From positions 124,001-188,000 of the forward strand of contig NZ_BOOP01000019.1 in the NCBI RefSeq assembly GCF_016863295.1: a stretch of 64,000 nt of DNA, in the 5' to 3' direction. The DNA comes from Planotetraspora phitsanulokensis (GTDB taxonomy: Bacteria > Actinomycetota > Actinomycetes > Streptosporangiales > Streptosporangiaceae). A program made the position numbers and the translations under genes. Of the stretch, positions 18,621-49,930 are shown one piece after another. The stretch's first letter is position 1. Each line of letters begins with the position of its first letter. The notes beneath the pieces were generated by a model, which saw only the letters and a program-made list of their open reading frames with translations, did no database searches and was not told the origin of the DNA.

Positions 18621-18740
18621 CGTGATCATGCGCAGGTTCGGCGAGATCCCGCCCGACCTGCGAAAACCCTGATCGTGATCATGGGCAGGTTCGGTGGAAC
18701 CCCGCCTCACCTGCGAAAACCAGGTGCGTGATCATGCAGC
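18621..18740. repeat. intergenic repeat, 53-base period (forward array)
   Basis: The 10-mer CGTGATCATG occurs at 18621, 18674 and 18727, exactly 53 bases apart. Between copies lies a hairpin-forming segment GCAGGTTCGG...ACCTGCGAAAACC. Two full units plus a partial third fill the convergent gap between mutY and the EboE-like gene. The reverse complement array is at 49812 and a single inverted pair at 35511. Confidence 0.85.
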
Positions 18741-18747
18741 GACGGAG

Positions 18748-19683
18748 TCAGGCGGCGAGCTTGAGGCCGAGATCGGTCAGGTTGCGGCGGGTCCAGTCGA
18801 GCTCGTCGGCGAGCCTGGCCACCAGGGCCGCCGGGCCCTTCGACTTGGGGGCCGTCCACTCGTGCGCCTCGACCTCGACATGGGCCGTGCCGTTGACCGC
18901 GCCGGACAGGATCGCGTTGAGCGTGTCCTGCAGCACCGGCTGCGTGCTCGGAATCTCCTGGCTGTGGTTGTGGACGTGTCCCAGCTTCACCACCGGAGCA
19001 CCCGCGAGAGCGAGCCCCCGCAGGGCGGCGCCCCGCTCCTCCGTGCCACAGGACAGGTGGCAGGCGTCCAGGCAGACGCCGAGGTGCTCGGAGTCGATCC
19101 CGCCGACCCGCGCCAGCGCCTGCTCCGTCGTTTCGAGGACGCAGCCCGGCCAGGGCTCGAATCCGACGCGGATGGTCTTGCCGGTCACGCTGTAGAGACC
19201 GCGCAGCTCACGCGAGAGCCGTTCGAGGCGGCGCGAGGCGATCGAGTGGAGGTCGGCGGGCCAGTCGCGACGCCAGCCGATCGGGATCGTCGAGATGCTG
19301 CCGAACCGCACGTCCTCGGGGAGCAGGAACGCGAGGATCTTCGCCAGCGCCATCGTGTAGCGGTACCGCTCGGGCTTGGCCCAGTCCGGCCCCGGAACCT
19401 CCTGGTTGTGACCGCCGGCCCCGTTGAGGCTGACCACCTCCAGGCCACGCTCCTCCAGCGAACGGCGCAGCCGTACTAGCTCGATGCGATCGGCGATGAG
19501 ATGGTCGGCGACGGCGGGCGCCAGCCACAGACCGATTCCGAGCCGATCGACGCCCAGCTTCCGCCGCACCGGCACCGCGTAGCGGGTGAGGTGGGCGATC
19601 AGGTTCTCCAGGTCCTCGGCCGGATGTACCCCAGCGTTGTAGGCCAGGTGAACGAGCGTCCCGTCGTCGTGCAACAGGCGCAT
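18748..19683 (-). CDS. EboE-like TIM-barrel protein
   Basis: 311 residues from ATG 19683, with GGGAGG six bases before it. The opening HLAYNAGVHPAEDLE and the RLGIGLWLAP strand match the EboE (metabolite traffic protein) family, a xylose-isomerase-like TIM barrel. Further metal-site candidates are VVSLNGAGGHNQ, RVGFEPWPG, LGVCLDACHL, VKLGHVHNH and HVEVEAHEW. In known ebo clusters EboE is encoded with EboA, B, C, D and F and is implicated in exporting a prenylated metabolite precursor; none of those genes is adjacent here, and the protein is shorter than typical EboE. It may be a stand-alone sugar-isomerase relative. Confidence 0.72.
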   Translation of the reverse strand: MRLLHDDGTLVHLAYNAGVHPAEDLENLIAHLTRYAVPVRRKLGVDRLGIGLWLAPAVADHLIADRIELVRLRRSLEERGLEVVSLNGAGGHNQEVPGPDWAKPERYRYTMALAKILAFLLPEDVRFGSISTIPIGWRRDWPADLHSIASRRLERLSRELRGLYSVTGKTIRVGFEPWPGCVLETTEQALARVGGIDSEHLGVCLDACHLSCGTEERGAALRGLALAGAPVVKLGHVHNHSQEIPSTQPVLQDTLNAILSGAVNGTAHVEVEAHEWTAPKSKGPAALVARLADELDWTRRNLTDLGLKLAA

Positions 19684-20048
19684 CAGATGCCTCCCAGACG
19701 TTGTGCACTCTCCGACCATGATCCACACGATCTGTCCCGATCGCATGGGGCCGAGGTCCTACTGGCACCGGGATCTTCCCGGCCTCGACCGAGCCTCCCG
19801 CGGATGCCCGGGTTCCCGCGTCCATCCCTCGGCGGATACGACTACTCCATCGGGATGATCTCGAGAGCGGTCTCGCCACGTTCGCCAACGTCATGATCCG
19901 CACCGAACCAGGCCAGACTCTACAGAGTGTAGTACTACGTTCGGTGGTGGGATACCCCGATCTCACGCAAAACCCGGAGCCGAGGTGAAGTCGTGCACGC
20001 GTCCGGCGCGAGGGCGCGGAGCTCGGCCACCGAACGCCCGGCACATGC
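19684..20048. other. gene-free stretch with a palindrome
   Basis: No supported gene. It holds the leader of the EboE-like gene and a perfect 10-base palindrome GTAGTACTAC (19929-19938), of the GT-N6-AC form used by GntR-family operators. No regulator of that family is encoded nearby. Confidence 0.4.
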
Positions 20049-20049
20049 G

Positions 20050-20083
20050 AAAAGGGGCGCCCCCGGTGGGGGCACCCCTTTTT
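20050..20083 (-). terminator. clpC terminator, probably bidirectional
   Basis: AAAGGGGCGCCCCC-GGT-GGGGGCACCCCTTTTT forms a strong stem flanked by A and T runs on both sides, 18 bases after the clpC stop. Confidence 0.92.
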
Positions 20084-20100
20084 CGGTCGTGCGGTCTAGC

Positions 20101-22602
20101 TCAGTTCTGGATCGGCTCGACGATCGAAGCCGCCGAGTCCGGAACCGCGGGAGTCTTGGACTCGCCGACGAAGGTGAACTTCGCCGCCTCGCCCTCTCCC
20201 TCGATGTCGATCTTGACGATCTGACCCGGACGCAGGTCGCCGTACAGGATCTTCTCGGACAGGGAGTCCTCCAGCTCGCGCTGGATCGTCCGGCGGAGCG
20301 GACGGGCACCCATGACCGGGTCGTATCCGCGGTCGGCGAGCAGCTGCTTCGCGGCCGGGGTCAGCGCCAGCGACATGTCGCGGTCCTTCAGGCGCTCGTC
20401 CACCTGGGCGAGCATCAGGTCCACGATCTGGATGATCTCCTTCGGCGTGAGCTGGTGGAAGACCACGATGTCGTCGACGCGGTTGAGGAACTCGGGCCGG
20501 AAGTGCTGCTTGAGCTCCTCCTGGACCTTCGACTTCATCCGGTCGTAGTTGCTCTCCGCGTCGTTCGTCTTCGCGAAGCCCACCCCGATGCCCTTGGAGA
20601 TGTCCCGGGTGCCGAGGTTGGTCGTCATGATGATGACGGTGTTCTTGAAGTCGACCACGCGACCCTGTGCGTCGGTCAGGCGACCGTCCTCGAGGATCTG
20701 GAGCAGCGAGTTGAAGATGTCCGGGTGGGCCTTCTCGATCTCGTCGAAGAGGACCACCGAGAACGGCTTGCGCCGCACCTTCTCGGTCAGCTGACCACCC
20801 TCCTCGTACCCGACGTAGCCGGGCGGGGAGCCGAACAGCCGCGAGACCGTGTGCTTCTCCATGAACTCCGACATGTCCAGCATGATCAGCGCGTCCTCGT
20901 CCCCGAAGAGGAACTCGGCGAGCGCCTTGGACAGCTCGGTCTTGCCGACGCCGGAGGGACCGGCGAAGATGAACGACCCTCCAGGCCTTCTCGGGTCCTT
21001 CAGGCCGGCACGCGTCCGGCGGATGGACCGGGACAGGCCCTTGATCGCGTCGTCCTGGCCGATGATCCGCTTGTGGAGCTCGTCCTCCATGCGGAGCAGC
21101 CGCTGCGACTCCTCCTCGGTCAGCTTGAAGACCGGGATGCCGGTGGCCGTCGCGAGCACCTCGGCGATGAGCTCCTCGGTGACCTCGGCGACGACGTCCA
21201 TGTCGCCGGCCTTCCACTCCTTCTCACGGCGCTCGCGCTTGAGCTGGAGCTGCTTCTCCTGGTCACGCAGGGCGGCGGCCTTCTCGAAGTCCTGCGCGTC
21301 TATCGCGGACTCCTTCTCACGCCGCACGTTGGCGATCTTCTCGTCGTACTCGCGCAGGTCCGGCGGAGCGGTCATCCGGCGGATGCGCATCCGGGACCCG
21401 GCCTCGTCGATGAGGTCGATCGCCTTGTCCGGCAGGAACCGGTCGCTGATGTACCGGTCGGCCAGCTGGGCGGCGGCCACGAGGGCGCCGTCGGTGATGG
21501 AGACCCGGTGGTGCGCCTCGTAGCGGTCGCGCAGGCCCTTGAGGATCTCGATCGTGTGGCTGAGGCTCGGCTCGGCCACCTGGATCGGCTGGAAGCGCCG
21601 CTCGAGCGCGGCGTCCTTCTCCAGGTGCTTGCGATACTCGTCCAGCGTCGTCGCACCGATGGTCTGGAGCTCGCCGCGGGCCAGCATCGGCTTGAGGATG
21701 CTCGCCGCGTCGATCGCGCCTTCGGCGGCGCCCGCTCCGACCAGCGTGTGCAGCTCGTCGATGAACAGGATGATGTCGCCGCGGGTGCGGATCTCCTTCA
21801 GCACCTTCTTGAGGCGCTCCTCGAAGTCACCGCGGTAGCGGGAGCCGGCCACCAGGGCACCCAGGTCGAGGGTGTAGAGCTGCTTGTCCTTGAGCGTCTC
21901 GGGCACCTCGCCCTTGACGATCTTCTGCGACAGGCCCTCCACGACGGCGGTCTTGCCGACGCCGGGCTCTCCCACCAGAACCGGGTTGTTCTTGGTCCTC
22001 CGGGAGAGGACCTGCATGACCCGCTCGATCTCCTTCTCCCGGCCGATGACCGGGTCGAGCTTGCCCTCCCGGGCGGCCTGCGTCAGGTTGCGGCCAAACT
22101 GGTCCAGCACAAGCGAGGTCGAAGGAGCGGCCTCCTGCGGCCCACCGGCCGCAGCGGGCTCCTTCTGGTAGCCATGGAGCAACTGGATGACCTGCTGCCG
22201 CACTCTGTTGAGATCGGCCCCCAGCTTCACCAGCACCTGGGCCGCCACACCTTCACCCTCGCGGATGAGACCGAGCAGGATGTGCTCGGTGCCAATGTAG
22301 TTGTGGCCGAGCTGCAGGGCCTCGCGGAGCGACAGCTCAAGGACCTTCTTCGCGCGCGGGGTGAAGGGAATGTGCCCCGACGGCGCAGACTGGCCCTGGC
22401 CGATGATCTCCTCGACCTGCTGGCGCACACCCTCAAGGCTGATGCCCAGGCTCTCCAGAGCCTTGGCCGCAACGCCCTCACCCTCATGGATCAAGCCAAG
22501 AAGAATGTGCTCAGTACCGATGTAGTTGTGGTTGAGCATCCGGGCCTCTTCCTGAGCCAGGACGACAACCCGCCGCGCACGGTCGGTGAACCTTTCGAAC
22601 AT
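20101..22602 (-). CDS. clpC: ATP-dependent unfoldase ClpC
   Basis: 833 residues. Start ATG 22602 ([13 protein letters not shown]) follows GAGGAG at good spacing; the frame's upstream extension is not coding. Two N-terminal Clp repeats ([14 protein letters not shown] and again [14 protein letters not shown]), NBD1 with Walker A GEPGVGKT, a UVR-type middle region, and NBD2 with GPSGVGKT are all intact. ClpC threads substrates into the ClpP1P2 peptidase, is essential in mycobacteria and is the target of cyclomarin and related antibiotics. A ClgR-type box lies 164 bases upstream. Confidence 0.97.
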
Positions 22603-22765
22603 CTCGTCGCTCCTCACAGAGCGGTCAGGCGGACCAGGGAGATCCGGCCCGTCGTTCCGCATGGTAGCCCCGACCCAGCGACCGCTCCCATAGCAGAAGG
22701 GTTCCCCGAGAGCGAGGCGTTCACCCTCTATCCAACCCCGTGATGGGCGCCAGATGTTCCGGATA

Positions 22766-22779
22766 CGCCGCAAGCGAAC
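22766..22779 (-). promoter_or_regulatory. ClgR-type activator box upstream of clpC
   Basis: On the minus strand the sequence GTTCGC-TTGCG-GCG matches the GTTCGC-N5-GCG operator of ClgR, the activator of clp genes in Streptomyces and Corynebacterium. Confidence 0.72.
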
Positions 22780-22804
22780 GAGGTTTTAGCAGACTACAAA
22801 CAGA

Positions 22805-22859
22805 ATCGCGCGGTTATCCCGATCGTCAGAACATCCGACGACTGGCATAACCGCGCGAT
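22805..22859 (-). terminator. lsr2 terminator hairpin
   Basis: Thirteen-base perfect arms ATCGCGCGGTTAT (22805-22817) and ATAACCGCGCGAT (22847-22859) with a 29-base loop, 12 bases after the lsr2 stop; on the minus strand a short T-rich tail follows. Confidence 0.65.
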
Positions 22860-22870
22860 CAAGGGCGCAG

Positions 22871-23215
22871 TTAGTGAGCTGCGTCGTAGGCTTCGACGAT
22901 CGACGCGGCAATACGTCCGCGCTCGCTCACAGGGTGACCGTGCGACTTGGCCCAAGCGCGGATCTCCGCGCTCTTCTCCCGGCTCATCGCACGCTGTGCG
23001 CTACCACTCGGACCACGACGACGGCCTCGGACCGAACCGGATTCGGCTCGCCGCGCACCGCCGACGAAAGGTGACAGAGCATCGCGAAGCCGCTTGGCGT
23101 TGCCATCGCTCAGGTCAATCTCATAAGAGGTACCGTCAATCGCGAACGCCACCGTCTCATTGGCCTCGCCGCCATCGAGATCATCGATGAGAATCACCTG
23201 TGTGTGCTTGGCCAT
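22871..23215 (-). CDS. lsr2: nucleoid-associated xenogeneic silencer Lsr2
   Basis: 114 residues from ATG 23215 with AAAGGA upstream. The N-terminal dimerisation beta-sheet (VILIDDLDGGEANETVAF and YEIDLSDGNAKRL) and the C-terminal AT-minor-groove binder with its RGR hook (VSERGRIAASIVEAY) are both present, joined by a basic linker. Lsr2 binds AT-rich DNA and silences horizontally acquired genes and specialised metabolism. Its position next to clpC matches the M. tuberculosis order lysS-lsr2-clpC1, though here lysS has moved about 5 kb away. Confidence 0.96.
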   Translation of the reverse strand: MAKHTQVILIDDLDGGEANETVAFAIDGTSYEIDLSDGNAKRLRDALSPFVGGARRAESGSVRGRRRGPSGSAQRAMSREKSAEIRAWAKSHGHPVSERGRIAASIVEAYDAAH

Positions 23216-23287
23216 CCGGCAATCCTTTCGCGGAGCATAGTTTGATTCGTCAGCCAAACATATACCCGGTTTCCCGTGGCTGACAAT

Positions 23288-23452
23288 TCAAGTTTGTGGA
23301 TTCTCAGGAACCTGTGAGCTTGCTGAGTTCTCCCGCGACTCCGGTGTCGAGCGCAAGCCGGCGGCATCGGAACGTACCAACTTTACGATGCCGTACACGA
23401 CCGCTCCCGCGGCGACCACGGAAGGTATCAAGGCGGACAATACATCTGTCAT
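23288..23452 (-). CDS. 54-residue single-helix membrane protein
   Basis: From ATG 23452, a short lead MTDVLSALI is followed by one hydrophobic helix (SVVAAGAVVYGIVKLV), a basic residue pair and a polar Ser/Glu/Gln tail. Only a weak ribosome site is visible. The clean helix and positive-inside flank support a real protein; function unknown. The longer open frame upstream is Arg-rich and unlikely. Confidence 0.45.
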   Translation of the reverse strand: MTDVLSALIPSVVAAGAVVYGIVKLVRSDAAGLRSTPESRENSASSQVPENPQT

Positions 23453-23770
23453 TCTGACTCGCTTGCGCCGGGGGTGTCTTTCGCGGCACCCGCGTGAATT
23501 TCGGGATGACGTCCGGCCACCGTGGCGTTCTGCTCTGGAGGGCGTCATCTCGACGATAGCGCCGCCGGGACCTGCTCCTCCTTCCGGGGGGCGCCTGCCG
23601 ACCGGAAGGTAATCCGTGTCTCTCCAGCCGCCTTACCGGATGCGGAGAAATCATACCCAGGAATGCCAAGTGGGACGGTCCGCCGAAGCGGCCGCCCCAC
23701 CTTTCGCCCTGAGTTCAGTGGCATAGATCGCACTGTGTCGGGGCCATGTCACGCTGATTTCACCGCTGTG
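23453..23770. other. gene-free stretch with a hairpin
   Basis: No supported gene. A stem at 23670-23700 (GTGGG..CGG..CCGC-CGAA-GCGG..CG..CCCAC) lies downstream of the RDD gene on the minus strand and could end its transcript; there is no strong T run. Confidence 0.4.
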
Positions 23771-24391
23771 TCAGCGCGGCGCCTTCACCACGAGAGTCCC
23801 GGCGACCTTGTCGTGAAGTCCCTGCTGAAGGGGCTTGTCCACGATGAGCATGATGCCGAGCACGAGGACGAAGAGCCCTGCGAGGAACCCGATGACCGGA
23901 ATCCCGTAGAGCACCAGGATGCCGGGGAAGATGCCCGAGCGCTTCATCAGGGCGGAGGAATCCGGCTTCGCGCCCCCCACTCCGACGAGCTGGATCTTCA
24001 TGGCCTTCTTGCCGAAGGTCTGACCGTCCTTGGAGTGCAGCACGTAGTCGTAGGCCGCATATGCGCCCCAAGCGATCACCGCGGCGAGGAATCCCGGCAA
24101 AAACAGGTTGCCCGTGGGGTTCGTCAGCAGGTCGGCCAGGCTCGGCTGGAAGATCGAGTTGAGGATGCCGAGGATAATCCAGTACACGACGCCGAAGATG
24201 AGCCCGTCGATGATTCGCGCGACCAATCGCTCCCACCATTCGGCGAGCGGGGCCGGGGCGCCCGGAGGAAGGGGCGCGCCTTGGGGAGCCGCTCCATAAG
24301 GGCCGTAGCCGGGAGGTGGCGGATATCCACCGGGGGGCGGCGTCGGGGCGGACTCATATGGATTCTGGCCGGGGGGTGGTTCCGCAGTCAT
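23771..24391 (-). CDS. RDD-family membrane protein
   Basis: 206 residues. A Pro/Gly/Tyr-rich cytoplasmic N-terminus of about 45 residues precedes an RDD domain: ERLVARIIDGLIFGVVYW begins the first helix with the signature Arg-Asp pair, DGQTFGKKAMKIQLV is the central amphipathic segment, and PLQQGLHDKVAGTLVV closes it. RDD proteins have three helices and are suspected transporters or stress membrane proteins; a few act as sodium/proton antiporters. Its paralogue lies immediately upstream on the same strand. Confidence 0.88.
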   Translation of the reverse strand: MTAEPPPGQNPYESAPTPPPGGYPPPPGYGPYGAAPQGAPLPPGAPAPLAEWWERLVARIIDGLIFGVVYWIILGILNSIFQPSLADLLTNPTGNLFLPGFLAAVIAWGAYAAYDYVLHSKDGQTFGKKAMKIQLVGVGGAKPDSSALMKRSGIFPGILVLYGIPVIGFLAGLFVLVLGIMLIVDKPLQQGLHDKVAGTLVVKAPR

Positions 24392-24510
24392 TGGTCACCT
24401 CTCGTGACGGCGTGGGGACATGCGTCGGTCAAGCATCGCACGGGATACCCCGCCCGTTACGGCTTTTAGTGCGTACCTCCACACTGCGCGCCACTTGTAT
24501 CGAAGATACG

Positions 24511-24547
24511 AAAACGGGGCCGATGGTCCGTTCCATCGACCCCGTTA
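24511..24547 (-). terminator. rho-independent terminator of the second RDD gene
   Basis: AACGGGGTCGATGG-AACGGA-CCATCGGCCCCGTTTTC on the minus strand: a stem with a short loop and a T run, directly after the stop at 24555. Confidence 0.9.
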
Positions 24548-24554
24548 TGTAGCA

Positions 24555-25778
24555 CTACTTGACCTTGACCACGATCGTGTTGGCGACCTTGTCGTGCAAC
24601 GCCTGGCTCAGCGGCTTATCCCAAAGGAGCCAGAGGACATTCACCAAGGCGAAGATGCCGGCGAGCCAGCCCACCAAGGGAATCCATCGGATCAGTTGCG
24701 GCCCGTAGAGCACACCGGCCCGCTTGGCCGCCACATCCTGCTGAAGGCCCTCCGGGCCGAGCGTTCCGCCGACGGGGACGACCTTGATCCCCATGACGAT
24801 CTTTCCGACGGTCTGCCCCCGCTGGCGCAACATGAGGAATTCGTACGCGATCATCACGGCGCCGCTGACCAAAGCGATGAGCAGGCCGGCGAGGAACACG
24901 CCGCTTTCGAGGGTCACCGCCCCCGAGTCGGGGTCGTAACCGGCTCGCGTGACCACGATGGCGGTGATGATCGCCGTGATGATGAAGAACGGGACGCCGA
25001 CGATGACGCCGTCGACGATCCTTGCGACCAGTCGCTGCCACCACTCGGCGAGCGGCGCGGGCGCTCCCGGCGGGACCGCACCCTGAGCGCCGTACGGCTG
25101 GCCGTATCCCGGCTGACCGTACCCAGGCTGTCCATACGCCGGCTGACCGTACCCGGGCTGCCCGTAGGGCTGCTGACCGTATCCAGGCTGCCCGTAGCCC
25201 TGGCCATAGGGCTGCTGCTGGCCGTAACCCGGCTGACCCTGGCCGTACTGCTGCGTCTGGCCGTAGTCGGGCTGGCCGTAGTCAGGCTGGCCGTAACCCT
25301 GCTGGGGATAGCCCTGCTGACCGTAACCCTGTTGCCCGTAGCCCTGCTGGCCGTAACCCTGCTGACCCTGGCCGTACGGCTGGGCCGGCTGCTGACCATA
25401 GGGGTTGGCGGGTTGCTGCCCGTAGCCTCCCTGATCGGGGGACTGCGCCGGCTGCTGGCCGTACGGGTTGCCGGGCTGCTGGGGGTTGCCGGGCTGCTGG
25501 GGGTTGCCGGGCTGCTGGGGGTTGCCACCCTGCTGCGCCTGCTGGCCGTAGCCCTGTTGCCCGTAGCCCTGCTGGCCGTACTGCTGCTGTCCGTAGCCCT
25601 GCCGGCCAGGGTCCTGTTGGCCGTATCCGTAGCCCTGCGGCTGACCCGGCGGACCGACGATCGTGACGTCCGGGTCGTAGCCCTGCTGGGACTGCTCGGT
25701 GTCCTGGCGGTCGCGTCCGCGGCCGGAAGACGAACCTTCCGGATTTCCCTGCGGGTACGGCGGCTGTCCAGTGCTCAC
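24555..25778 (-). CDS. RDD-family membrane protein with long Gly-Tyr-Gln-rich N-terminus
   Basis: 407 residues from GTG 25778, with GAGGTG upstream. Residues from about 55 to 245 are almost entirely repeats of YGQQG, GQPGYG and NPQQPG, a prion-like, low-complexity sequence. The C-terminal 165 residues form an RDD domain ([50 protein letters not shown]). The tail would sit in the cytoplasm and may cluster the protein by weak aromatic interactions, as in other YG/Q-rich proteins. DNA repeats underlying it span roughly 25090-25650. Paralogous to the neighbouring shorter RDD protein. Confidence 0.87.
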
Positions 25779-26793: not shown

Positions 26794-26849
26794 CCAGCGA
26801 CAATAACCGGTCACCGTGGCCCCACACGGGCGACCGGGCCGCCGAGTCT

Positions 26850-26995
26850 TCCGAGCACTCACATGCGAAGCGGAGCCGGGGACCCAACTGTGCGGATCTG
26901 GACGTTCTAGATCAACAAGGGGTGAATCCGAAAGGTAGGGCTACTCCGGCCCGAACCCGTCAGCTAACCCGGTAGGCGGCAAGGAGTGCCGAACG
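26850..26995 (+). ncRNA. c-di-AMP riboswitch (ydaO/yuaA type)
   Basis: Conserved blocks of the ydaO aptamer are present in order: GCGGAGCCGGGGACCCA, AAGGGGTGAATCCGAAAGG, TAGGGCTACTCCGGCCCGAA, CCCGTCAGCTAACCCGGTAGGCG. The closing stem pairs GCACTC (26855-26860) with GAGTGC (26984-26989). In actinobacteria this class commonly precedes genes for wall hydrolases and resuscitation factors and turns them off when c-di-AMP is high. An 8-base hairpin CCGTGTGG / CCACACGG (26999-27025) between aptamer and start codon may be part of the expression platform. Confidence 0.95.
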
Positions 26996-32931: not shown

Positions 32932-32937
32932 ATTATG
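32932..32937 (-). promoter_or_regulatory. -10 hexamer upstream of coaX
   Basis: CATAAT on the minus strand ends six bases before ATG 32925 and covers the last bases of the preceding gene. The intervening CGGGGA could instead act as a weak ribosome site. Confidence 0.5.
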
Positions 32938-35431
32938 CACCACGAAGATCCAGACCAATGTCCAGCGCGGAGACCGAGTGAGTGAGGGCTCCGACCGCCA
33001 GATAGTCGACTCCGGTCTCGGCCACGGCGCGGGCGGTGTCGAGGGTCAGGCCGCCGCTGGACTCGAGGCGCGCCCGCCCTCCGACCAGCCGTACGGCCTC
33101 GGCGAGCTGCTCCACCGTGAAGTTGTCGAGCAGGATCTCCTCGGCGCCCTCCGCCAGGACCGGCTCGATCTGGTCGATCCGGTCCACCTCGACCTCGATC
33201 GGGATGCCGGGGAAGGCCTGCCGTACGGCGCGGAACGCCTCGGCGACTCCTCCCGCGGCGACCACGTGGTTGTCCTTGATCAGGGCGGCGTCGTGGAGGC
33301 CCATCCGGTGGTTGACGCCGCCGCCGCAGTGCACCGCGTACTTCTCCAGTGCCCGCAGGCCCGGCAGCGTCTTGCGGGTGTCCCGTACGCGGGCCTTGGT
33401 CCCGGCGACCGCGTCCACCCACCGGCTGGTGACGGTGGCGACGCCCGACAGATGGGTGACGAAGTTCAGGGCGGTCCGCTCCAGGGTGAGCAGATCCCTG
33501 GTGCGGCCGTGGACGGTCATGAGGACGTCCCCGGGGCCGACGCGGTCGCCGTCCTTGACCCGGCGTTCGACGACGATCTCCGAGCCCGCCTGGCGGAAGA
33601 CCGCCTCGGCGACCGCGAGCCCGGCGACCACGCCCTCCTTGCGGGCGACCAGGTCGGCCACCGCGGTCTGGTCCGCGGGGATGGTGGCGGCCGACGTCAC
33701 GTCCAGCCCGCCGGCGAGATCCTCGTCGAGCGCCGTGGACACCAGGTGGGCGAGCCGGGCGGGCTCGATGCCCAGGCCGGCCAGCTCGGCGTCGATGTCG
33801 TGGGCCTGGTGTCGCATGTGCAGTCCTTCCGTTCCAAGGGAGATGTCGATGTGCAGCCGCCAGCGGTCGTCGTCGCGTTCCGGGTGATCCTCACGCCAGT
33901 GGGCGCCGCGGGTCTCCTCCCGCTCCGCGGCCGCCGCGACGAGGGCGGACGCCACCGTGAGCAGGTTCGTGGCCTCCCACGACTCGGTGCAGGGCTCGAC
34001 GGCGATCGGGGTCCAGCGGGCGTTCTCGAGCGCGCGGGCGACCTCGGTGAGGCTCTCGTCACTGCGGAGCACGCCGGCGCCCCGGCTCATGTGGCTCTGG
34101 ATCCTGGTGCGCACGCGGGGGTCGACCAGGCCCTCCGGCCTGTCCAGTACGCCCGGCGCCTCGGGGGCCTCGGTGTGAGAGACCAGGTCGGAGGCGATGC
34201 GTTCGGCGAAGACGAGACCCTCGAGCAGGGAGTTGGAGGCGAGCCGGTTGGCGCCGTGCACGCCCGTGCAGGCCACCTCACCGCACGCGTAGAGGCCGGG
34301 AACGCTGGTCCTGCCGTACAGGTCGGTGCGGACGCCGCCGCTGGCGTAATGGGCCGCCGGGGCGACCGGAATCGGCTGCGTGACCGGGTCGATGCCGTGC
34401 TCGCGGCAGACCGCGAGGATCGTCGGGAACCTCGTGCGCCACTTCTCCTCACCGAAGTCCCGCGCGTCCAGGTAGACGTGGTCGGCGCCGGTCTCGTTCA
34501 TCTTCCGGGTGATCGCTTTGGCCACGACGTCGCGGGGCGCGAGGTCGGCCAGCTCGTGGACGTCCCGCATGAACCTGTCGCCGTCCGCGTCGACCAGGAC
34601 CGCGCCCTCTCCGCGTACCGCCTCGGACACCAGGGGCTGCTGGCCGGTCGAGCCTTCGCCGAGCCAGAGGACCGTGGGGTGGAACTGGACGAATTCGATG
34701 TCCCGGACGACCGCGCCCGCGCGCAGGGCCAGCGCCACCCCGTCGCCCGTTGAGACGACCGGGTTGGTCGTGGCGGCGTAGATCTGGCCCATGCCGCCGC
34801 TGGCCAGCACGACGGCCCGGGCGTTCGCGGCCCCCACGCCGTCCCGGGCGCCTTCACCCATGACGTGCAGGGTCACCCCGCGGGCGCGGCCGCTTCCGTC
34901 CTGGATCAGGTCGAGGACGAGAGCGTGCTCGATGACCTCGATGCGCGGCTCGGCGAGGACGGCCTGGGTGAGGGCGCGCTGCACCTCCGCTCCCGTGGCG
35001 TCACCGCCCGCATGGACGATCCGATTGCGGCGATGGCCGCCCTCACGGGTCAGCTGGAGCTCGCCGTCGTGGTCCCGGTCGAAGCGGGCTCCGTGAGCGA
35101 TGAGCCGCTTCAGCGCGTCGGGGCCCTCGGTGACCAGGATCCGCACGGCCTCCTCGTCGCACAGGCCGACACCCGCGATGAGGGTGTCGTTGAGGTGCTC
35201 GTCGGGGGTGTCCTCCGGGTCGAGCACCGCCGCGATCCCGCCCTGCGCCCAGCGCGTGGACCCGGCGGACAGCACGTCCTTGGTGACGACGAGGACCCGC
35301 GCCTCAGGGGCGAGCTCGGTGTAGGTCAGGGCCGCCGTCAGGCCGGCGATGCCCGACCCGACCACGACGACGTCGGCGTCCACACTCCATCCGGGAGCGG
35401 GTGCAGTGAGCTTTCTCGGTATCGCCACCAT
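32933..35431 (-). CDS. nadB-nadC: fused L-aspartate oxidase / nicotinate-nucleotide pyrophosphorylase (NadB-NadC)
   Basis: One uninterrupted 832-codon frame holds two enzymes normally made separately. Residues about 20-535 are L-aspartate oxidase: FAD loop VVVVGSGIAGLTAALTY, STRWAQGGIAA, and the active-site HYASGGV and GLYACGEVACTGVHGANR. Residues about 545-832 are NadC: DEDLAGGLDVTSAAT, RDTRKTLPGLRALEKYAV, LIKDNHV and the terminal VDYLAVGALTHS. Together they make iminoaspartate and later convert quinolinate plus PRPP to nicotinate mononucleotide; NadA is missing here. Met539 (33817) has a GGAAGGA six bases upstream, so free NadC could also be made. This unit occupies the place of panD in M. 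tuberculosis. Confidence 0.92.
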   Translation of the reverse strand: MVAIPRKLTAPAPGWSVDADVVVVGSGIAGLTAALTYTELAPEARVLVVTKDVLSAGSTRWAQGGIAAVLDPEDTPDEHLNDTLIAGVGLCDEEAVRILVTEGPDALKRLIAHGARFDRDHDGELQLTREGGHRRNRIVHAGGDATGAEVQRALTQAVLAEPRIEVIEHALVLDLIQDGSGRARGVTLHVMGEGARDGVGAANARAVVLASGGMGQIYAATTNPVVSTGDGVALALRAGAVVRDIEFVQFHPTVLWLGEGSTGQQPLVSEAVRGEGAVLVDADGDRFMRDVHELADLAPRDVVAKAITRKMNETGADHVYLDARDFGEEKWRTRFPTILAVCREHGIDPVTQPIPVAPAAHYASGGVRTDLYGRTSVPGLYACGEVACTGVHGANRLASNSLLEGLVFAERIASDLVSHTEAPEAPGVLDRPEGLVDPRVRTRIQSHMSRGAGVLRSDESLTEVARALENARWTPIAVEPCTESWEATNLLTVASALVAAAAEREETRGAHWREDHPERDDDRWRLHIDISLGTEGLHMRHQAHDIDAELAGLGIEPARLAHLVSTALDEDLAGGLDVTSAATIPADQTAVADLVARKEGVVAGLAVAEAVFRQAGSEIVVERRVKDGDRVGPGDVLMTVHGRTRDLLTLERTALNFVTHLSGVATVTSRWVDAVAGTKARVRDTRKTLPGLRALEKYAVHCGGGVNHRMGLHDAALIKDNHVVAAGGVAEAFRAVRQAFPGIPIEVEVDRIDQIEPVLAEGAEEILLDNFTVEQLAEAVRLVGGRARLESSGGLTLDTARAVAETGVDYLAVGALTHSVSALDIGLDLRGA

Positions 35432-35510
35432 GAGGGGGTTCCCCTTTCGTCACTATGACGATAACGCCCCCCTTTCCCCGTTTCCTCCCCACCCCACCCC
35501 CTCACTTGAG

Positions 35511-35630
35511 GTGATCATGCACAGGCTCGCGAAGTGCCCGGCAGGTGGGCGGGGGACTCCGCGAACTTACGCATGATCACGCCCAGAGGGAGGGGATCAC
35601 GTCCCTGAAACCCAGAGGGAGGGGTCACAT
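35511..35630. repeat. inverted pair of the GTGATCATG repeat plus 29-base direct repeat
   Basis: GTGATCATGC at 35511 and its inverse GCATGATCAC at 35571 bracket CAGGCTCGCG...CGCGAACTTACG, the same flanks as the 53-base arrays at 18.6 and 49.8 kb. Immediately downstream CCCAGAGGGAGGGG occurs at 35582 and 35611. Located between nadB and panC. Confidence 0.75.
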
Positions 35631-36473
35631 GGGGAGGATGGGGGTGTTGTCGATCAGGCGGGTGTTGCCTACTTTGGCGGCGACGACGAGGAGTGCCTCA
35701 CCCTGGTGGGCGTCGTCCACGGGCTGGAACGTCAGGGGATCGACCAGTTCCACGTAGTCCAGCAGCAGGGGCGGGTCCAGGCGCGTGGCGCCCTTCAGTA
35801 CGGCTTTCGCGGCCGCCAGAACCCGGGACGGCACGGTCTCCGCGGCCCCGGCCGCGAGGGCCTGGGAAAGGGACAGCGCGGTCGTCCGCTCCCGCGTCGA
35901 CAGATACCGGTTGCGGCTCGACAGGGCCAGGCCGTCGGGCTCCCGCACGGTGGGTGCCCCGACGATCGAGACGGGGACGTCCAGGTCGGCCACCATGCGG
36001 CGGATCATCGCGAGTTGCTGGGCGTCTTTCTGGCCGAAGACCGCGACGTCGGGCTGAACCAGGTTCAGCAACTTCAGGACCACGGTCAGGACGCCGTCGA
36101 AATGGCCCGGCCGGGACGCGCCCTCGACGATCGTGCCCATCGCCCCGGAGGAGACGCCGACCTGGCGGTCCGGGAGGTACATCTCGTCGGCGGAGGGTGC
36201 GAAGACCACACCGACGCCCTCCTCCGCGCACACCTCCAGATCAGCCTCAAATGTCCGTGGATAACGGGAAAAATCCTCGCTTGGCCCGAACTGGAGGGGA
36301 TTGACGAAGACACTGACCGCGATGTGCTTGGCATGCTCCCGAGCGAGCCGGATCAGCGACCGATGACCCTCGTGGAGCGCCCCCATGGTCGGCACGAGCG
36401 CCAGCGTGCCCGCACCGAGCGTGTCCTTCGCCTTGACCAGATCCGCGCGATCGCCTGCGACGATCACGTCCAT
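35625..36473 (-). CDS. panC: pantothenate synthetase PanC
   Basis: 282 residues from ATG 36473, overlapping the DUF2520 gene by ten bases. ATP-site motif [16 protein letters not shown] (HxGH), [31 protein letters not shown] and the KMSKS-like [10 protein letters not shown] are all present. It joins pantoate and beta-alanine with ATP to make pantothenate, feeding CoaX. Translational overlap with the Rossmann protein matches the arrangement Rv3603c-panC in M. tuberculosis. Confidence 0.96.
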
Positions 36474-39862: not shown

Positions 39863-39955
39863 GTCAGGTCATGAGCGCCAGCGTCAAGCCCCGGCTCGCT
39901 GGCCGGCAACCCTCGCGTCCGCGGCGGGGTGCCCCGGGTGAAGACCAGGTCCGGC
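39863..39955 (+). ncRNA. SAM-IV riboswitch
   Basis: The sequence follows the actinobacterial SAM-IV consensus closely: GGTCATGAGCGCCAGCGTCA, AGCCCCGGCTCGCTGGCCGG, CAACCCTCG, a CGCGGCGGGGTGCCCCGGG block and closing GTGAAGACC. The outer stem pairs GGTC near 39867 with GACC near 39943. SAM binding is expected to lower expression of the downstream SufS-like gene, as for sulfur and methionine genes in this class. Confidence 0.95.
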
Positions 39956-40032
39956 ACGAGGTGTGCCGGGCAAGCGCGGGCTCCGTCGTACGACGCCATG
40001 GTCGGGGTCCCATGACCTCAAGGAGTCCGGCG

Positions 40033-43049: not shown

Positions 43050-43550
43050 TCAGACAGGGGGTTCGAGGGAGAGATCGGCGCGTAGCCGCACACCACTGTG
43101 GTCGAGGCCGGCGAGCAACGCCGAGACGGGCCCGTGACCCGGAAGGTCCGCCGCGGGGTCGGCCTGCGCCCAGGGGATCAGCACGAACGCCCTCTCGTGC
43201 GCCCGGGGGTGCGGAAGGGTGAGCTCCGGGTCGTCGGACACCACGCCACCCACCATGATCAGGTCGACGTCGAGCGTCCTCGGCCCCCAGCGTTCGAGCC
43301 GTTCACGGCCGAAGGCCTTCTCGATGCTGTTGGCCCGGTCGAGGAGCACGCGAGGAGCCAGTGTGCTTTCGGCGATCACGACGGCGTTCAGGTAGGCGTC
43401 CTGTTCGGGTCCGCCCACCGGATCCGTCTCGTAGACAGGCGAAACCGCCACGAACGTGAGCCCGGGGGCGTCGAAGAGGGCGTCCAGCGCGCCCTGGAGG
43501 TAGTCGATCCGGCGGCCGAGATTGCTGCCGAGCGACAGGACGACCCTCAT
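43050..43550 (-). CDS. folK: hydroxymethyldihydropterin pyrophosphokinase FolK
   Basis: 166 residues. VVLSLGSNLGRRIDYLQGAL opens the HPPK fold; ETDPVGGPEQDAYLNAV binds the pterin, and RWGPRTLDVDLIM holds the two magnesium-binding aspartates. It transfers pyrophosphate from ATP to 6-hydroxymethyl-7,8-dihydropterin. Start ATG 43550 overlaps the folB stop by four bases. Confidence 0.96.
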   Translation of the reverse strand: MRVVLSLGSNLGRRIDYLQGALDALFDAPGLTFVAVSPVYETDPVGGPEQDAYLNAVVIAESTLAPRVLLDRANSIEKAFGRERLERWGPRTLDVDLIMVGGVVSDDPELTLPHPRAHERAFVLIPWAQADPAADLPGHGPVSALLAGLDHSGVRLRADLSLEPPV

Positions 43551-43936
43551 CCGCGAGCCCTTCTGATGGTCACCACCACGTCGCCGAACGGCAGCGGGAT
43601 GGGTGCCGCCGGCTTGTGCACGCTGATCTCCACCTCATCGACCAGGTCGTAGGCCAGGCAGACCGACGACAGCCGGTCGGCGAGGGTCTCGATCAGGTTG
43701 ACCGGCTCACCCTCGACCGTGCGGACGAGCTGGAGGGCCAGCGCGCCGTAGTCGACGGTCTTGGTCAGGTCGTCGCCCGCGGCGGCGGGAGCCGTGTCGA
43801 GGAACAGGGTCACGTCCACGACGAACTCCTGGCCGAGCTCCCGCTCCGCGGGAAGGCAGCCGTGCCGCCCACGCGCCCTGAGCCCGACGAGGCGCACACT
43901 GTCCGTCTGGGCCCCGCGGCCCGTCGACGCGCTCAT
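43547..43936 (-). CDS. folB: dihydroneopterin aldolase FolB
   Basis: 129 residues. RGRHGCLPAERELGQEF contains the pterin-contact Glu, TVDYG the conserved tyrosine and ISVHKPAAPIP the catalytic lysine. It cleaves dihydroneopterin to hydroxymethyldihydropterin. Its start overlaps the stop of the NTF2-like gene (ATGA) and its stop overlaps folK. Confidence 0.95.
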   Translation of the reverse strand: MSASTGRGAQTDSVRLVGLRARGRHGCLPAERELGQEFVVDVTLFLDTAPAAAGDDLTKTVDYGALALQLVRTVEGEPVNLIETLADRLSSVCLAYDLVDEVEISVHKPAAPIPLPFGDVVVTIRRARG

Positions 43937-44355
43937 GATTCTTCTTCCTCGTCGTCGTCACCCTGGAGCACGGGCGATCCGTGGTGCAGCCAGAGCCGCC
44001 AGCCCGCAGGAGTCCGCAGGAACGTGTTCGTGGCCACCACCCGTCCGGCGGCGAAGCCCGGCTCCTCGGTGTCGGCCGCCGTGAGGATGTTCTCCGCGCA
44101 CGTGACGATGGCGACGTCGCCCACGACCGTGGTCTGGACGTCGGTGAGCACGAACTGGATGTACGGCGTGTTCGCCATGATCAGCGCCCATGACCTGAGC
44201 ACCTCTGAGCGGCCGCTGAGCATCGGCCAGCCGGGGTGGACGCACATCGCGACCCGGTCGGCCGCGTCCTCCACCCATATCTCCGACATCTTGTCGAGGT
44301 CGGCGCTCTCGATCGCGTTGTAGAACGCCTCGTTGAGCTCCTCGATGTCCTTCAT
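43933..44355 (-). CDS. NTF2-like (SnoaL/DUF4440-type) protein within the folate operon
   Basis: 140 residues from ATG 44355, overlapping folP's stop (ATGA), with AAAGGA inside folP as its ribosome site. EELNEAFYNAIESADLDKM starts the cone-shaped NTF2 fold; VEDAADRVAMCVHPGWPML and WRLWLHHGSPV complete it, and an acidic DDDEEEE tail closes it. These folds bind small hydrophobic ligands or act as isomerases/hydrolases. It is inserted between folP and folB, a place empty in M. tuberculosis; a role in pterin or pABA handling is possible but unproven. Confidence 0.85.
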   Translation of the reverse strand: MKDIEELNEAFYNAIESADLDKMSEIWVEDAADRVAMCVHPGWPMLSGRSEVLRSWALIMANTPYIQFVLTDVQTTVVGDVAIVTCAENILTAADTEEPGFAAGRVVATNTFLRTPAGWRLWLHHGSPVLQGDDDEEEES

Positions 44356-45227
44356 CCGCGTCCTTTGTCGGCATGTCCATCGCCGGCCGCCGTCCAGGCG
44401 GCGGCCACACGCACGGCGTCGGCGTTGGCCGCGACGTGATGCACCCGGACGCACCAGGCACCGGCCTGGGCGGCCAGCGCGGTGACGGCGAGGGTCGCGT
44501 CGTCACTGCGGCTGAACGGCCTGGGCGTGCCGTCCGCGTCCGAGAGCAGGCGCCCGAGGAAACGTTTCCTGGACGCGCCGATGATCAGAGGGTAACCCAG
44601 CTCGTTCAGTGTGCCGATGCCGGCGAGAAGAGCCCAGTTGTGCTCGGCGTGCTTGGAGAAACCCAGACCAGGATCAAGGACGATCTGCTCCTCGCGGACC
44701 CCCTCGGCGAGCACCGAGTCGACCCGCTTGCGCAGTTCCTCGGCCACCTCGGTCACCACGTCGGCGTAGATGGCCCTGCTGTCCATGTCACGGCTGTGCC
44801 CACGCCAGTGCATCACCACATAGGGCACGCCCGTCGCGGCCACCACACGGGGCATCACGGGGTCGGCCAGGCCACCGCTGACGTCGTTGACCAGCTTCGC
44901 CCCGGCCTCGACGGCCGCCTCCGCGACCTCCGCGCGCATGGTGTCGACGCTGACCGTCACGCCCTCCTCGGTGAGGGTGCGGATCACGGGCTCGACCCTG
45001 CGCAGCTCCTCCTCCAGCGACACCCGGATGGCGCCGGGGCGAGTCGACTCCCCGCCCACGTCGACGAGGTCGGCGCCTTCCCTGACGAGGTCGAGGCCGT
45101 GCCTGATCGCGGTGTCCACGTCGAACCACTGGCCGCCGTCGGAGAACGAGTCAGGTGTCACGTTGACCACGCCCATGACCAGGCACCGCCCGGGCGCGGG
45201 CATGCCGCGCACATGTCGTGTGGTCAT
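44352..45227 (-). CDS. folP: dihydropteroate synthase FolP
   Basis: 291 residues. MGVVNVTPDSFSDGG and DLVDVGGESTRPGA are the pterin and phosphate loops; VNDVSGGLADP, VLDPGLGFSKHAEHN and IIGASRKRFLG follow, ending VRVHHVAANADAVRVA. It condenses hydroxymethyldihydropterin pyrophosphate with p-aminobenzoate and is the sulfonamide target. ATG 45227; 153 bases separate it from folE, without a visible gene. Confidence 0.96.
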   Translation of the reverse strand: MTTRHVRGMPAPGRCLVMGVVNVTPDSFSDGGQWFDVDTAIRHGLDLVREGADLVDVGGESTRPGAIRVSLEEELRRVEPVIRTLTEEGVTVSVDTMRAEVAEAAVEAGAKLVNDVSGGLADPVMPRVVAATGVPYVVMHWRGHSRDMDSRAIYADVVTEVAEELRKRVDSVLAEGVREEQIVLDPGLGFSKHAEHNWALLAGIGTLNELGYPLIIGASRKRFLGRLLSDADGTPRPFSRSDDATLAVTALAAQAGAWCVRVHHVAANADAVRVAAAWTAAGDGHADKGRG

Positions 45228-45380
45228 TCCCCCTCCTCGCCCGGGGCTCGTCGGCGAATGACCGTGGCCCCGGTGTCGGAAGGCCCACTCGCTTCGCTCG
45301 CAACCAAGCCTAGGTGCTGCCAGGTCGCGATCAGTCGCATGGGTGCGCCCACCGCCATAACGAATCGGGTCCCGCCGCGG

Positions 45381-45965
45381 TCAGCCGCGGAGGATCAGCG
45401 ACATCGCCTCCGCGCGCGTCGCCTCACTCGAGCGGAAGTCACCCCTGACGGCCGAGGTGATCGTCTTCGCTCCCGGCTTGCGGACGCCGCGCATCGTCAT
45501 GCACATGTGCTCGGCCTCGATGACCACGATCGCCCCGCGCGGCTCGAGCACGCGCATCAGCGCGTCGGCGATCTGCGACGTCATCCGCTCCTGGACCTGG
45601 GGGCGGCGTGCGTACACGTCCACCAGCCTGGCCAGCTTGGATAAGCCGGTGATCTGCCCCTTCTCGTTGGGCGTGTAGCCGATGTGCGCGACGCCGTGGA
45701 ACGGGAGGAGGTGGTGCTCGCAGGTGGACATGACCTCGATGTCCTTCACCAGCACCATCTCGTCGTGGTCGGCGTCGAACATCGTGGTCAGCGCGTCCTC
45801 CGGCGTCTGTCCGAGACCGGCGAACTGTTCCGCGTAGGCACGGGCCACGCGGGCGGGGGTGTCCCGCAGCCCGTCCCGGTCAGGATCTTCGCCGATCGCA
45901 GAAAGGATCTCGCGAACGGCCTTCTCGATCCGGCCGTGGTCGAACTGCGGAACTGGTGGCACCAC
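45381..45965 (-). CDS. folE: GTP cyclohydrolase I FolE
   Basis: 194 residues. Zinc ligands lie in [11 protein letters not shown] and [16 protein letters not shown], with the GTP-binding [20 protein letters not shown] in between. It makes dihydroneopterin triphosphate, the first step toward folate. GTG 45965 begins two bases after the ftsH stop, so the genes are co-transcribed and coupled. Confidence 0.97.
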
Positions 45966-45967
45966 TG

Positions 45968-47971
<2,004 letters not shown>

Positions 47972-48238
47972 CCGTTGCGGAACCCCGGCGGGCCCGTCCC
48001 TTCCTGACCAAGGCCTGGCCCCGGGAAGACCCGGGGTCGCGGCATCCCTTGCCGCTCCTTCTGACTACCCGCAGGTAACCTACTGGCTTCCCACGGATCT
48101 CCGAAGGTACACCGGGCCGCCCCAGGCGGTAACTGCCCGTGCGATTCCGGCTTGCCCTTCCAACGTACGTCAGCCGTTCCCGTGTTCCCCTACCTGGGAG
48201 CGAATAACGCCCGACTGGAAGGGCACTTCGCTCAGGGC

Positions 48239-48796
48239 TTACTCGCCCCCGTAGACGTGAGGCGCAAGCGTCCCGATGAAGGGCAAGTTACGGTATCGCT
48301 CGTCGTAATCGAGGCCGAAACCGATCACGAACTCGTTCGGGATGTCAAAGCCGACGTATCGCACGTCGATGGGCACTTTTACCGCGTCCGGTTTGCGGAG
48401 AAGAGTGCAGATTTCAACCGAGGCAGGGTTACGCGACTTCAAGTTGTTCATGAGCCACGACAGCGTCAGGCCGGAGTCGATGATGTCCTCCACGACCAGC
48501 ACGTGGCGGCCGGCGATGTCGGTGTCGAGGTCCTTGAGCACCCGCACCACGCCGGACGACTTGGTGCCCGCCCCATAGGACGAAACGGCCATCCAGTCCA
48601 TGTGCACAGCGACGTGCAAGGCCCGCGCGAGGTCGGCCATGACCATGACGGCACCCTTGAGCACGCCGACTATCAGCAGGTCCTTCCCGGCATAGTCGGC
48701 GTCGATCTTCCCCGCCAACTCCTTGATCTTGGCTTGGAGATCTTCTTCCGGAATCAGGACACTCGAGAGGTCCTGGCCCATGTCGGCTGCGTCCAC
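48239..48796 (-). CDS. hpt: hypoxanthine phosphoribosyltransferase
   Basis: 185 residues. PRPP-binding motif [31 protein letters not shown] and the purine-contact block [25 protein letters not shown] are complete. It salvages hypoxanthine and guanine. GTG 48796 is 13 bases after tilS, with which it is co-transcribed, as in many Gram-positives where tilS-hpt-ftsH is a conserved string. An internal ATG (Met6) is an alternative start. Confidence 0.96.
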
Positions 48797-48808
48797 CTGG
48801 GGTTTTCC

Positions 48809-49789
48809 TTACGAGAGGTTGTCTGTGGCGAATATCAGCGTCCCATAGCGCCGGACGGCGCCCACCCCCCCGGGTAGGTGAACGGCCTTCTGGCCTCGCC
48901 ATTCGGTGACCAGGCGCTCCACCTCCGCGATGTGGACCGCGCCCAACGCCGAGGCGGACGCGCCGGCCGACACCGCCGCCCGCCGGATCACCCGGCGCCG
49001 CACCGCCGCCGGCACCTCCTCCAGCGCGGACACCTTCAGGGACCCGTCGGGCCCGGCCGACGCCTCGTAGACCGCGTCGGCCCACGCGTCGAGGGCGTCC
49101 GCGTCGTCCCGGCACAGCCGTGCCGTACGGGCGAGGGCCTCGGCCACTCCGGGGCCCAGCGCCGTCTCGAGCGCCGGAAGCACGTCGTGCCGGACCCTGA
49201 CCCTGGTGTAGGCGGGGTCGGTGTTGTGCGGGTCGTCCCACGGCCGCAGGCCCAGAGCCGCACAGGCCTCCTGGGTCCTCGTACGGCTCAGGCCCAGCAG
49301 CGGCCGGCGATAGATGCCGGAAACCTCGGGCATTCCGGACAGGGATCGGCTGCCGCTGCCCCGTGCGAGGCGCAGAAGCACGGTCTCGGCCTGATCGTTC
49401 ATCGTGTGGCCGAGGAGCACAGCCACGGCCCCGAGTCGGTGAGCGGCCTCCGAGAGGGCCTCATAACGGGCGTCCCGGGCCGCGGCCTCAGGCCCCCCGG
49501 CCCTGCCCACGATGACCGTCAGGGCCTCGGCGGGCTCGAGGTCCAGCGAGGGCGCGAGCCGTACGACATCGAGCGCGCGGGCGGCCGACCCGTCCTGGAG
49601 GCCGTGGTCGACGGTCACGAGCCCGGCCTTGAGGCCCATCCGCGGCGCGGTGAAGCCCAGTGCCGCCGCGAGGGCGAGCGAGTCTGCGCCGCCGCTGCAG
49701 GCGACCAGCACCAACCCGCCGGGCGCGAGGTCCCCCAGCGACAGCCGTACGGCACGGCGGACGTCGGCGACGGCGGGATGTGGGCCCAT
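48809..49789 (-). CDS. tilS: tRNA(Ile)-lysidine synthetase TilS
   Basis: 326 residues. The PP-loop [18 protein letters not shown] and [20 protein letters not shown] identify TilS, which attaches lysine to C34 of tRNA-Ile(CAU) so that it reads AUA. The C-terminal third is the shortened actinobacterial form without the full TilS_C domain. ATG 49789 is directly downstream of the 53-base repeat array. Confidence 0.95.
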
Positions 49790-49811
49790 AGGCCCATTGT
49801 GTCCACCCGCG

Positions 49812-49930
49812 CATGATCACGGAACGCATCCGCGCAGGCAGGCCCGCCTGATCACGAACCTGCGCATGATCACGCGAGGACTCGGCGCAGGTCAGATCAC
49901 GTGATCGCGAACCCATGCATGATCACGGCG
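49812..49930. repeat. intergenic repeat, 53-base period (reverse array)
   Basis: CATGATCACG, the reverse complement of the 18.6 kb core, occurs at 49812, 49865 and 49918, again exactly 53 bases apart, with CGAACCTGCG-type flanks and intermediate half-cores (TGATCACG near 49849, GATCACGTGATC near 49896). It fills the gap between tilS and the metalloprotease gene. Confidence 0.85.

Follow-up and report, generated by a model that had tools for sequence, protein, structure and literature searches.

Phased intergenic repeat arrays of Planotetraspora and a candidate AbiEi-nuclease partner

The window analysed here, 64,000 nucleotides of the Planotetraspora phitsanulokensis genome (contig NZ_BOOP01000019.1, positions 124,001 to 188,000; genome G000, 9.17 Mb, family Streptosporangiaceae), carries three intergenic sites of a repeat with a 53-bp period. 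Sequence comparison with related genomes makes it fairly probable that such arrays serve as DNA sites for a protein joining an AbiEi-type part to a PD-(D/E)XK nuclease part, in a partnership that resembles REPIN/RAYT on an unrelated nuclease, and that the genome of the window is a natural knock-out of this protein. We compared G000 with P. mira (G003), P. silvatica (G004), P. kaengkrachanensis (G002) and more distant genomes. Arrays were counted as array-pair hits, defined as like-oriented GTGATC[A/T]TGC cores at a distance of 30-60 bp.

A nuclease gene lies between facing arrays

Three genomes were picked because of their arrays. In two of them, G491 and G579, a gene lies between facing arrays, and both products belong to one protein family (64% identical). 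In the third, G091, a relative of this protein adjoins five cores on one side. An array-blind domain search (PF13338, 30 loci) yielded two relatives past a motif filter, in G116 and G053, and here repeat copies stand on both sides of the gene, not arranged as simple facing sets. A profile of these five proteins (A2), run on 31 genomes, added ten new genomes at E <= 1e-75, a cut chosen after the list was known: G093, G001, G004, G002, G003, G432, G419, G150, G145 and G141. In nine of them the gene sits between facing GTGATC[AT]TG copies of the genome's own dialect, and in the tenth, G419, between facing copies of CTGATCATGCACATGTGGCGAG. Thus in each of the ten genomes added, the strong homologue lies inside that genome's own facing repeat.

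Run as a prediction test, a search for CTGATCATGCACATGTGGCGAG showed that it is dispersed in G419, with 47 copies at three mismatches or fewer, 18 of them exact (control 0). Elsewhere, the congener G405 has 16 copies, none exact, and six other genomes have at most one. Facing copies in G419, in pairs such as C188:7243-7313, are offset by 48 to 51 bases, mostly 50, and several are exact. These pairs look like a REPIN-like doublet that was recently active.

Flanking of this kind is rare among other genes. At least two facing cores on each side were found for 0 of 1356 genes in stretches of 380-400 kb each from P. mira, P. kaengkrachanensis, P. silvatica and G000, and for 3 of 323 genes in G101, the densest genome. 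Array-flanked genes of G101 resembling, by eye, FdhD, acetoacetate decarboxylase and acyl-CoA dehydrogenase were considered as partners and rejected as chance at high array density.

The gene is found once per genome as a strong homologue, at a locus conserved in two genera. The order P450, gene, GDP-mannose dehydratase (neighbours identified by eye) is common to G003, G001 and G150; alignment over the flanks and the gene places G002 and G004 with G003 and G001, and G145 and G141 with G150. Presence of the gene also goes with array number. Within genus g96, array-pair hits number 30-115 in the three genomes that have the gene and 15 or fewer in those that lack it. Across the family, a homologue at E <= 1e-120 occurs in 9 of the 15 genomes with at least four pair hits and in 0 of 326 others, where the cut derives from a profile of flanked genes and species of one genus are not independent.

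The product fuses an AbiEi-type part to a Vsr-like nuclease part

In the partner protein an AbiEi-type winged-helix part is joined to a Vsr-like PD-(D/E)XK nuclease part (MTES_1575/DUF559); in the P. kaengkrachanensis protein these two parts span residues 3-181 and 224-287. Pfam models at E <= 0.1 match the 14 members of a later profile, A3, as follows: MTES_1575 (restriction endonuclease fold) 14, AbiEi_1 10, DUF559 8 and AbiEi_4 7. In the P. kaengkrachanensis protein MTES_1575 exceeds the Pfam cut-off, and the AbiEi models stay under theirs. PADLOC AbiEi models match all 14 members, at best with 1.6e-16. The nuclease motif E..., D..., EYDG..H, acidic residues included, is likewise retained in 14/14. 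The ratio of non-synonymous to synonymous substitution rates (dN/dS) is 0.10-0.18 over nine non-independent pairs, and the gene is under purifying selection.

No DDE or Y1 domain is among the partner's Pfam matches. In a profile search of PDB the best five matches had E-values of 0.05-0.5, with Vsr among them. Annotated relatives carry names by domain alone, and two pattern-based scans gave no viral relatives. A structure prediction of one partial protein (287 of 322 residues, L044), made without an alignment, was discarded at a mean pLDDT of 38.

Within genera, arrays are fewer where the gene is missing

Profile searches found no homologue of the partner in G000. At its P450-dehydratase locus a lone degenerate unit remains, consisting of two GTGATCACG cores separated by 54 bp, and the protein has left no trace. 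G000 has 142 array-pair hits vs 593-750 in four gene-bearing congeners; the gene is lost and the arrays are fewer and shorter. Within-genus comparisons thus agree: gene-less genomes have fewer arrays, which in Planotetraspora are also shorter.

Two conserved blocks form a 53-bp unit

In 380 kb of P. mira (joined pieces), 19 arrays are chains of 3-5 cores at 53-bp steps, and same-strand core distances peak at 53 (53 times), 106 (37 times) and 159 (19 times). G101 uses steps of 53 and 52. A consensus was made from 435 non-terminal units, mostly of P. mira, P. silvatica and P. kaengkrachanensis. Its A block reads C-GTGATCATGC-R-C-R-NN-TTCG (positions -1 to 18), and past a variable stretch a B block, YGACC[T/A]GC, occupies positions 32-39, followed by weaker preferences at 44-47. 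The last unit of an array is usually reduced to GTGATCATGCA or a near-identical sequence. Arrays face one another: facing core pairs number 104, 88, 89 and 99 in P. mira, P. kaengkrachanensis, P. silvatica and G101, vs 0, 0, 3 and 2 back-to-back, and 400 kb of G000 contain two facing pairs and no back-to-back pair.

Hairpin-forming flanks had been proposed for this repeat from the sequence of the window. In 190 non-redundant units, however, covariation is strongest between neighbouring columns and shows no stem; weaker distant pairs (e.g. 13-32, 24-45) exceed shuffles without aligning as a stem would. Columns 43-44 favour GA, AA and TT, and this neighbouring-column preference suggests that the units are read as double-stranded DNA. 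An RNA hairpin was rejected on the absence of stem-like covariation, and the three sites of the window have no Rfam match at gathering score.

Two departures from the 53-bp step were seen. At G002:C1:28555-28633 (L198), a local repeat with a 30-bp step lies within an array and leaves the A block unchanged. At 7885-8268 of L341 (G091:C9), 18 cores, most in units of GTGATCATGCAGCCGCTCGGCC, stand head-to-tail at a 22-bp step; step length is therefore very different in another family.

Array loci are shared between species and only the blocks are constrained

Where a counterpart locus was found in a sister species, most P. mira array loci are matched there by an array of identical position and orientation that differs by whole units, with 2-6 cores per arm. 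The exceptions are one P. mira locus that is coreless in P. kaengkrachanensis and one in G000. Among the few sites without an array in the loci viewed, no clean empty site with a duplication was seen.

In aligned orthologous units of P. mira and P. silvatica, mismatches number 3/410 in the core, 7/164 in TTCG, 9/205 in the B block and 123/695 in the spacers; because units were picked by their core in one species of the pair, the core figure is biased, and those for TTCG and B are not. Set against a dS of 0.151 for the partner gene in this pair, the spacers drift at about the synonymous rate. Thus, the A and B blocks are conserved while the spacers are near-neutral.

Units align well among the gene-bearing species and poorly in G000, in counts from 7-13 loci each whose sets are not identical, although G000 is at least as close to P. 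kaengkrachanensis in the flanks as P. mira and P. silvatica are. P. kaengkrachanensis units align in 46/48 cases with P. mira, 37/38 with P. silvatica and 11/22 with G000; P. mira units in 41/43 with P. silvatica, 51/62 with P. kaengkrachanensis and 9/27 with G000; and P. silvatica units in 45/46 with P. mira, 35/46 with P. kaengkrachanensis and 8/36 with G000. Facing arms are weakly homogenised, with a mean identity of 0.44-0.49 for units of the same rank, 0.34-0.39 for other ranks and 0.34-0.35 for other loci.

Arrays lie between genes and avoid divergent gaps

Gene positions in six stretches were taken from our own simple gene caller. Outside predicted genes lie 77/80 cores in P. mira, 123/136 in G101 and 88-96% per stretch. 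Among gaps of at least 60 bp, arrays occupy 5/29 convergent, 8/109 tandem and 0/53 divergent gaps in P. mira, 10/31, 19/135 and 1/43 in G101, and 0/40, 4/124 and 1/63 in G000. Pooled over these three, arrays are rare in divergent gaps (2/159) vs the others (46/468); the three unpooled stretches have them in 0/57, 0/54 and 0/10 divergent gaps. Over the six stretches, three of them with loci in common, tandem gaps hold 19 sense arrays, 13 antisense and 13 of both orientations. Array orientation there fails to follow the direction of transcription, and a simple polar terminator was therefore rejected.

Dialects occur across genera and families

Array-pair hits occur in 23 of 341 family genomes, eight of these with a single hit, and the control gave 0 throughout. 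Thus the repeat family is present in more than one species, against the species restriction that the sequence-only reading had proposed checking. Other families of the class have it too: of 394 genomes drawn, members of the family among them, 13 have at least one match, with 173 in G093, 113 in G432, 22 in G091, 20 in G579 and 12 in G491. Some other genera and families share the common core and add a tag of their own: CACAGGTTCG in most Planotetraspora, CAGAAGTTCG in G001, CAGTTTGTCGCA in genus g96, CACGAATTCCC with a 41-bp step in G054, CACGTTCGCCCC in G491 and AATCCCGCCACC in G093. Two IMG/VR contigs (L422, L423) have cores 52-54 bp apart and are possibly host flanks.

Some wider homologues have other inverted repeats

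Fifteen weaker homologues were taken as loci L396-L410. Thirteen have no facing GTGATC[AT]TG pair. The other two are those of G264, where GTGATC cores flank a homologue that matches only profile positions 13-110, and of G405, whose homologue looks decayed and is flanked by a degraded form of the CTGATCATGCACATGTGGCGAG dialect. An exact inverted repeat of at least 14 bp spans the gene at 8 of 26 other homologue loci vs 3 of 516 comparably long control genes from P. mira, G000 and G101, with 500 bp examined on each side of the profile match. These loci are L392, L398, L399, L406, L408, L409, L410 and L417, with repeats of 15 to 39 bp. Known arrays score 17, 15 and 12 (L390, L393, L386), so the test is conservative.

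At L399, L406, L408, L409 and L410 (G388, G116, G491, G053, G579) the inverted repeats, 15 to 33 bp long, differ in sequence at each locus. A remote AbiEi-nuclease homologue of G101 (L397, C71) has the palindrome TCGATCATGAC-GATAGTGCTG on both sides (1410-1480, 2450-2520), its longest exact word being 12, and L398 (G037) has a similar one, TCGATCATGACGTTGTTGCTG. At L417 (G033) a homologue is flanked by a different palindrome, GCAAGCCGGCTTGC (about 1230-1330 and 2310-2470), within an inverted repeat whose exact match extends over at least 39 bp.

Interpretation and alternatives

The favoured explanation, a REPIN/RAYT-like partnership of the arrays with the AbiEi-nuclease protein, may work as follows. 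The protein would bind the 53-bp unit as double-stranded DNA and would nick or cut there; repair between units could then add or remove whole 53-bp steps, partly evening out facing arms, and might rarely seed a new array site. Such a system would be a convergent counterpart of REPIN/RAYT with an unrelated enzyme, and in G000, its natural knock-out, the arrays would be decaying.

Several observations weigh against this explanation. Array-pair hits are also numerous in G101 (523), G264 (192), G054 (117), G037 (39) and G147 (15), and no intact array-flanked gene was found in these five; the absence is weak in G101, G054, G037 and G147 because six candidates per genome were scored. Relatives at E 1e-70 to 1e-108 exist in genera without these arrays, and nine of ten such loci have no inverted repeat of at least 14 bp (13 bp or less), the tenth, in G033, having 39 bp. 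A scan of these ten loci for 11-mers in three copies, which is blind to a two-copy pair such as that of G419, showed a flanking pattern in G033 only; one of the nine, G028, has a GTGATCATGC hairpin upstream of the gene. Profile A3 was made from flanked genes, and its E-value cut therefore favours the flanked clade. Neither recent transposition nor target-site duplication was seen in the Planotetraspora loci viewed. Finally, the contrast between core and spacers fits host selection for a binding site equally well.

One alternative we regard as unlikely, though well short of negligible, is that the arrays are useful to the host. In this reading the AbiEi-type part would bind the units at gene ends to regulate, to act as a roadblock or to structure the chromosome, the nuclease would be secondary, and the arrays would be needed by the cell. 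It would account for loci and orientations that are mostly common to species with 2-6 cores per arm, for conserved blocks amid near-neutral spacers, for the avoidance of divergent gaps and for the AA/GA/TT preference that suggests double-stranded recognition. It sits badly with the mixed orientations in tandem gaps, with acidic nuclease residues kept in all 14 proteins and with patchiness within genera, which is odd for a needed function.

It is very improbable that the arrays are the terminal transposase sites of a conventional transposable element (Tn7- or MITE-like), with gene-less arrays as deletion derivatives. Arrays do face inward, and the gene-bearing copy has the identical layout. Nevertheless, positions are largely orthologous, and with a mean identity of 0.34-0.35 between the spacers of different loci there is no sign of recent copying; the partner's Pfam matches also lack DDE and Y1 domains, and the loci viewed offer no clean empty site with a duplication.

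Slighter still is the chance that the repeats are DNA uptake sequences spread by biased transformation, or RNA terminators or structured RNAs. A conserved core with dialects and inverted pairs near stop codons would suit them; neither would be expected to combine a second block with a strict 53-bp period, no stem covaries, and the share of cores outside genes is unlike that of uptake sequences. Mobilisation of REP elements by a RAYT (Y1) transposase has almost nothing left in its favour. The repeats are intergenic, facing, high-copy and taxon-specific in their variants, and Y1_Tnp (PF01797) was found in 5 of 15 array-bearing family genomes (G001, G264, G037, G141, G147), yet it was unmatched in the other ten (G000, G002, G003, G004, G101, G054, G150, G145, G053, G116) and relatives without arrays, G140 and G153 among them, do have it. 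Y1_Tnp does not track the arrays, which refutes RAYT as their general mobiliser.

The repeat sites of the window

The sequence-only reading had reported three copies of one sequence, an opposite array 31 kb away and a third site with one inverted pair. All three hold: CGTGATCATG occurs at 18621, 18674 and 18727 (+), its reverse complement at 49812, 49865 and 49918, and the third site is a facing pair whose + copy, GGTGATCATG, has one mismatch. Matches with at most one mismatch number 22 in the window (shuffles: mean 4.46, maximum 13). The reading had staked its case on further copies in the chromosome and on the same spacing elsewhere. Exact CGTGATCATGC occurs 320 times in the whole genome vs one match of the reversed control, and the 53-bp spacing recurs in P. 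mira as given above. An intergenic position, also claimed, fits 7 of the 8 window cores tested with our gene caller. The dispersed family is therefore real and its 53-base period conserved, and both an amplified element and a phased binding array are possible. Beyond that reading are the two-block units with drifting spacers, the loci mostly common to species and the candidate partner nuclease gene elsewhere.

Table 1. Repeat sites of the window (gene likenesses by eye; scores from model R1).
Feature	Position	Strand	Composition	Gene context	R1 score (bits)
Array 1	18621..18738	+	two full 53-bp units (cores 18622, 18675) and terminal half unit GTGATCATGCA at 18728	begins 20 bp past stop codon of gene 17735-18601 (mutY-like)	57.5 and 35.7
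Site 2	35510..35581		one facing pair of cores, at 35511 (+) and 35580 (-, 5' end)	between genes 32933-35383 (-) (nadB-like) and 35625-36233 (-) (panC-like)	20.0 (+), 26.0 (-)
Array 3	49811..49927	-	two full units (core 5' ends 49926, 49873) and terminal half unit (49820)	between genes 49979-51049 (-) and 48809-49789 (-) (tilS-like)	53.2 and 30.2

The window also holds a c-di-AMP riboswitch at 26831-26993 (+) (RF00379, 66 bits) and a SAM-IV riboswitch at 39867-39982 (+) (RF00634, 104.5 bits).

Relation to known systems and significance

BIME-2 elements are REP arrays that bind gyrase, with a variable number of units near gene ends. The arrays described here share the variable unit number and the closeness to gene ends; they differ in a two-block 53-bp unit, in having a candidate nuclease gene of their own and in lacking a Y1 partner in most array-rich genomes. 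Mycobacterial MIRU, some of which are 53 bp long, are likewise tandem, intergenic and actinobacterial. Unlike MIRU, in which the whole unit is conserved, only two blocks are conserved here, and MIRU are not known to have a partner gene. The uptake sequence dialects of Neisseriaceae also combine a conserved core with dialects and inverted pairs, whereas the present repeats are almost only intergenic, form arrays and have a candidate partner nuclease. In domain content the partner resembles AbiEi antitoxins and Vsr/DUF559 nucleases, proteins for which no association with repeats was found in the open-access literature.

REPINs with RAYTs are the best-known repeats of the kind considered here. 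In REPIN/RAYT systems, inverted repeats that share a conserved end and vary by taxon are scattered between genes, a nuclease gene associated with them is single-copy and inherited vertically, and genomes that retain this gene have more copies (PMC8049555, PMC8266576); the repeats are maintained very long by one host-resident nuclease (PMC8049555). Here, too, a single-copy, vertically inherited nuclease gene is flanked by the repeat, and within genera copies are fewer without it, with between-genus exceptions in G101, G054 and G037. The nuclease is a different one: AbiEi plus PD-(D/E)XK instead of the Y1 HUH transposase of RAYT. The unit starts with GTGATCATGC, not with a GTAG tag and a covarying palindromic stem, and in Planotetraspora it forms strictly phased multi-unit arrays. 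The repeat-nuclease pair would work like REPIN/RAYT as described in PMC8049555 and is not a member of it: neither a Y1 enzyme that tracks the arrays nor a GTAG tag with a stem was found. No description of such a pair was found in the open-access literature searched, which included PMC3733652, PMC8049555 and PMC8266576 and left subscription papers outside its scope.

We see an even chance that these arrays are a second, independently evolved 'sequence population' system, in which a fusion of a restriction-fold nuclease with an AbiEi winged helix builds and maintains helically phased recognition arrays of its own, with genus dialects across several Actinomycete families, that decay after its loss; relatives may have repeats of their own. 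If true, an unrelated enzyme in a REPIN/RAYT-like role would mean that this lifestyle evolved at least twice, and DUF559/AbiEi-type proteins would be supplied with a role. G000, with its gene gone and its arrays reduced, offers a natural test of the gene's action.

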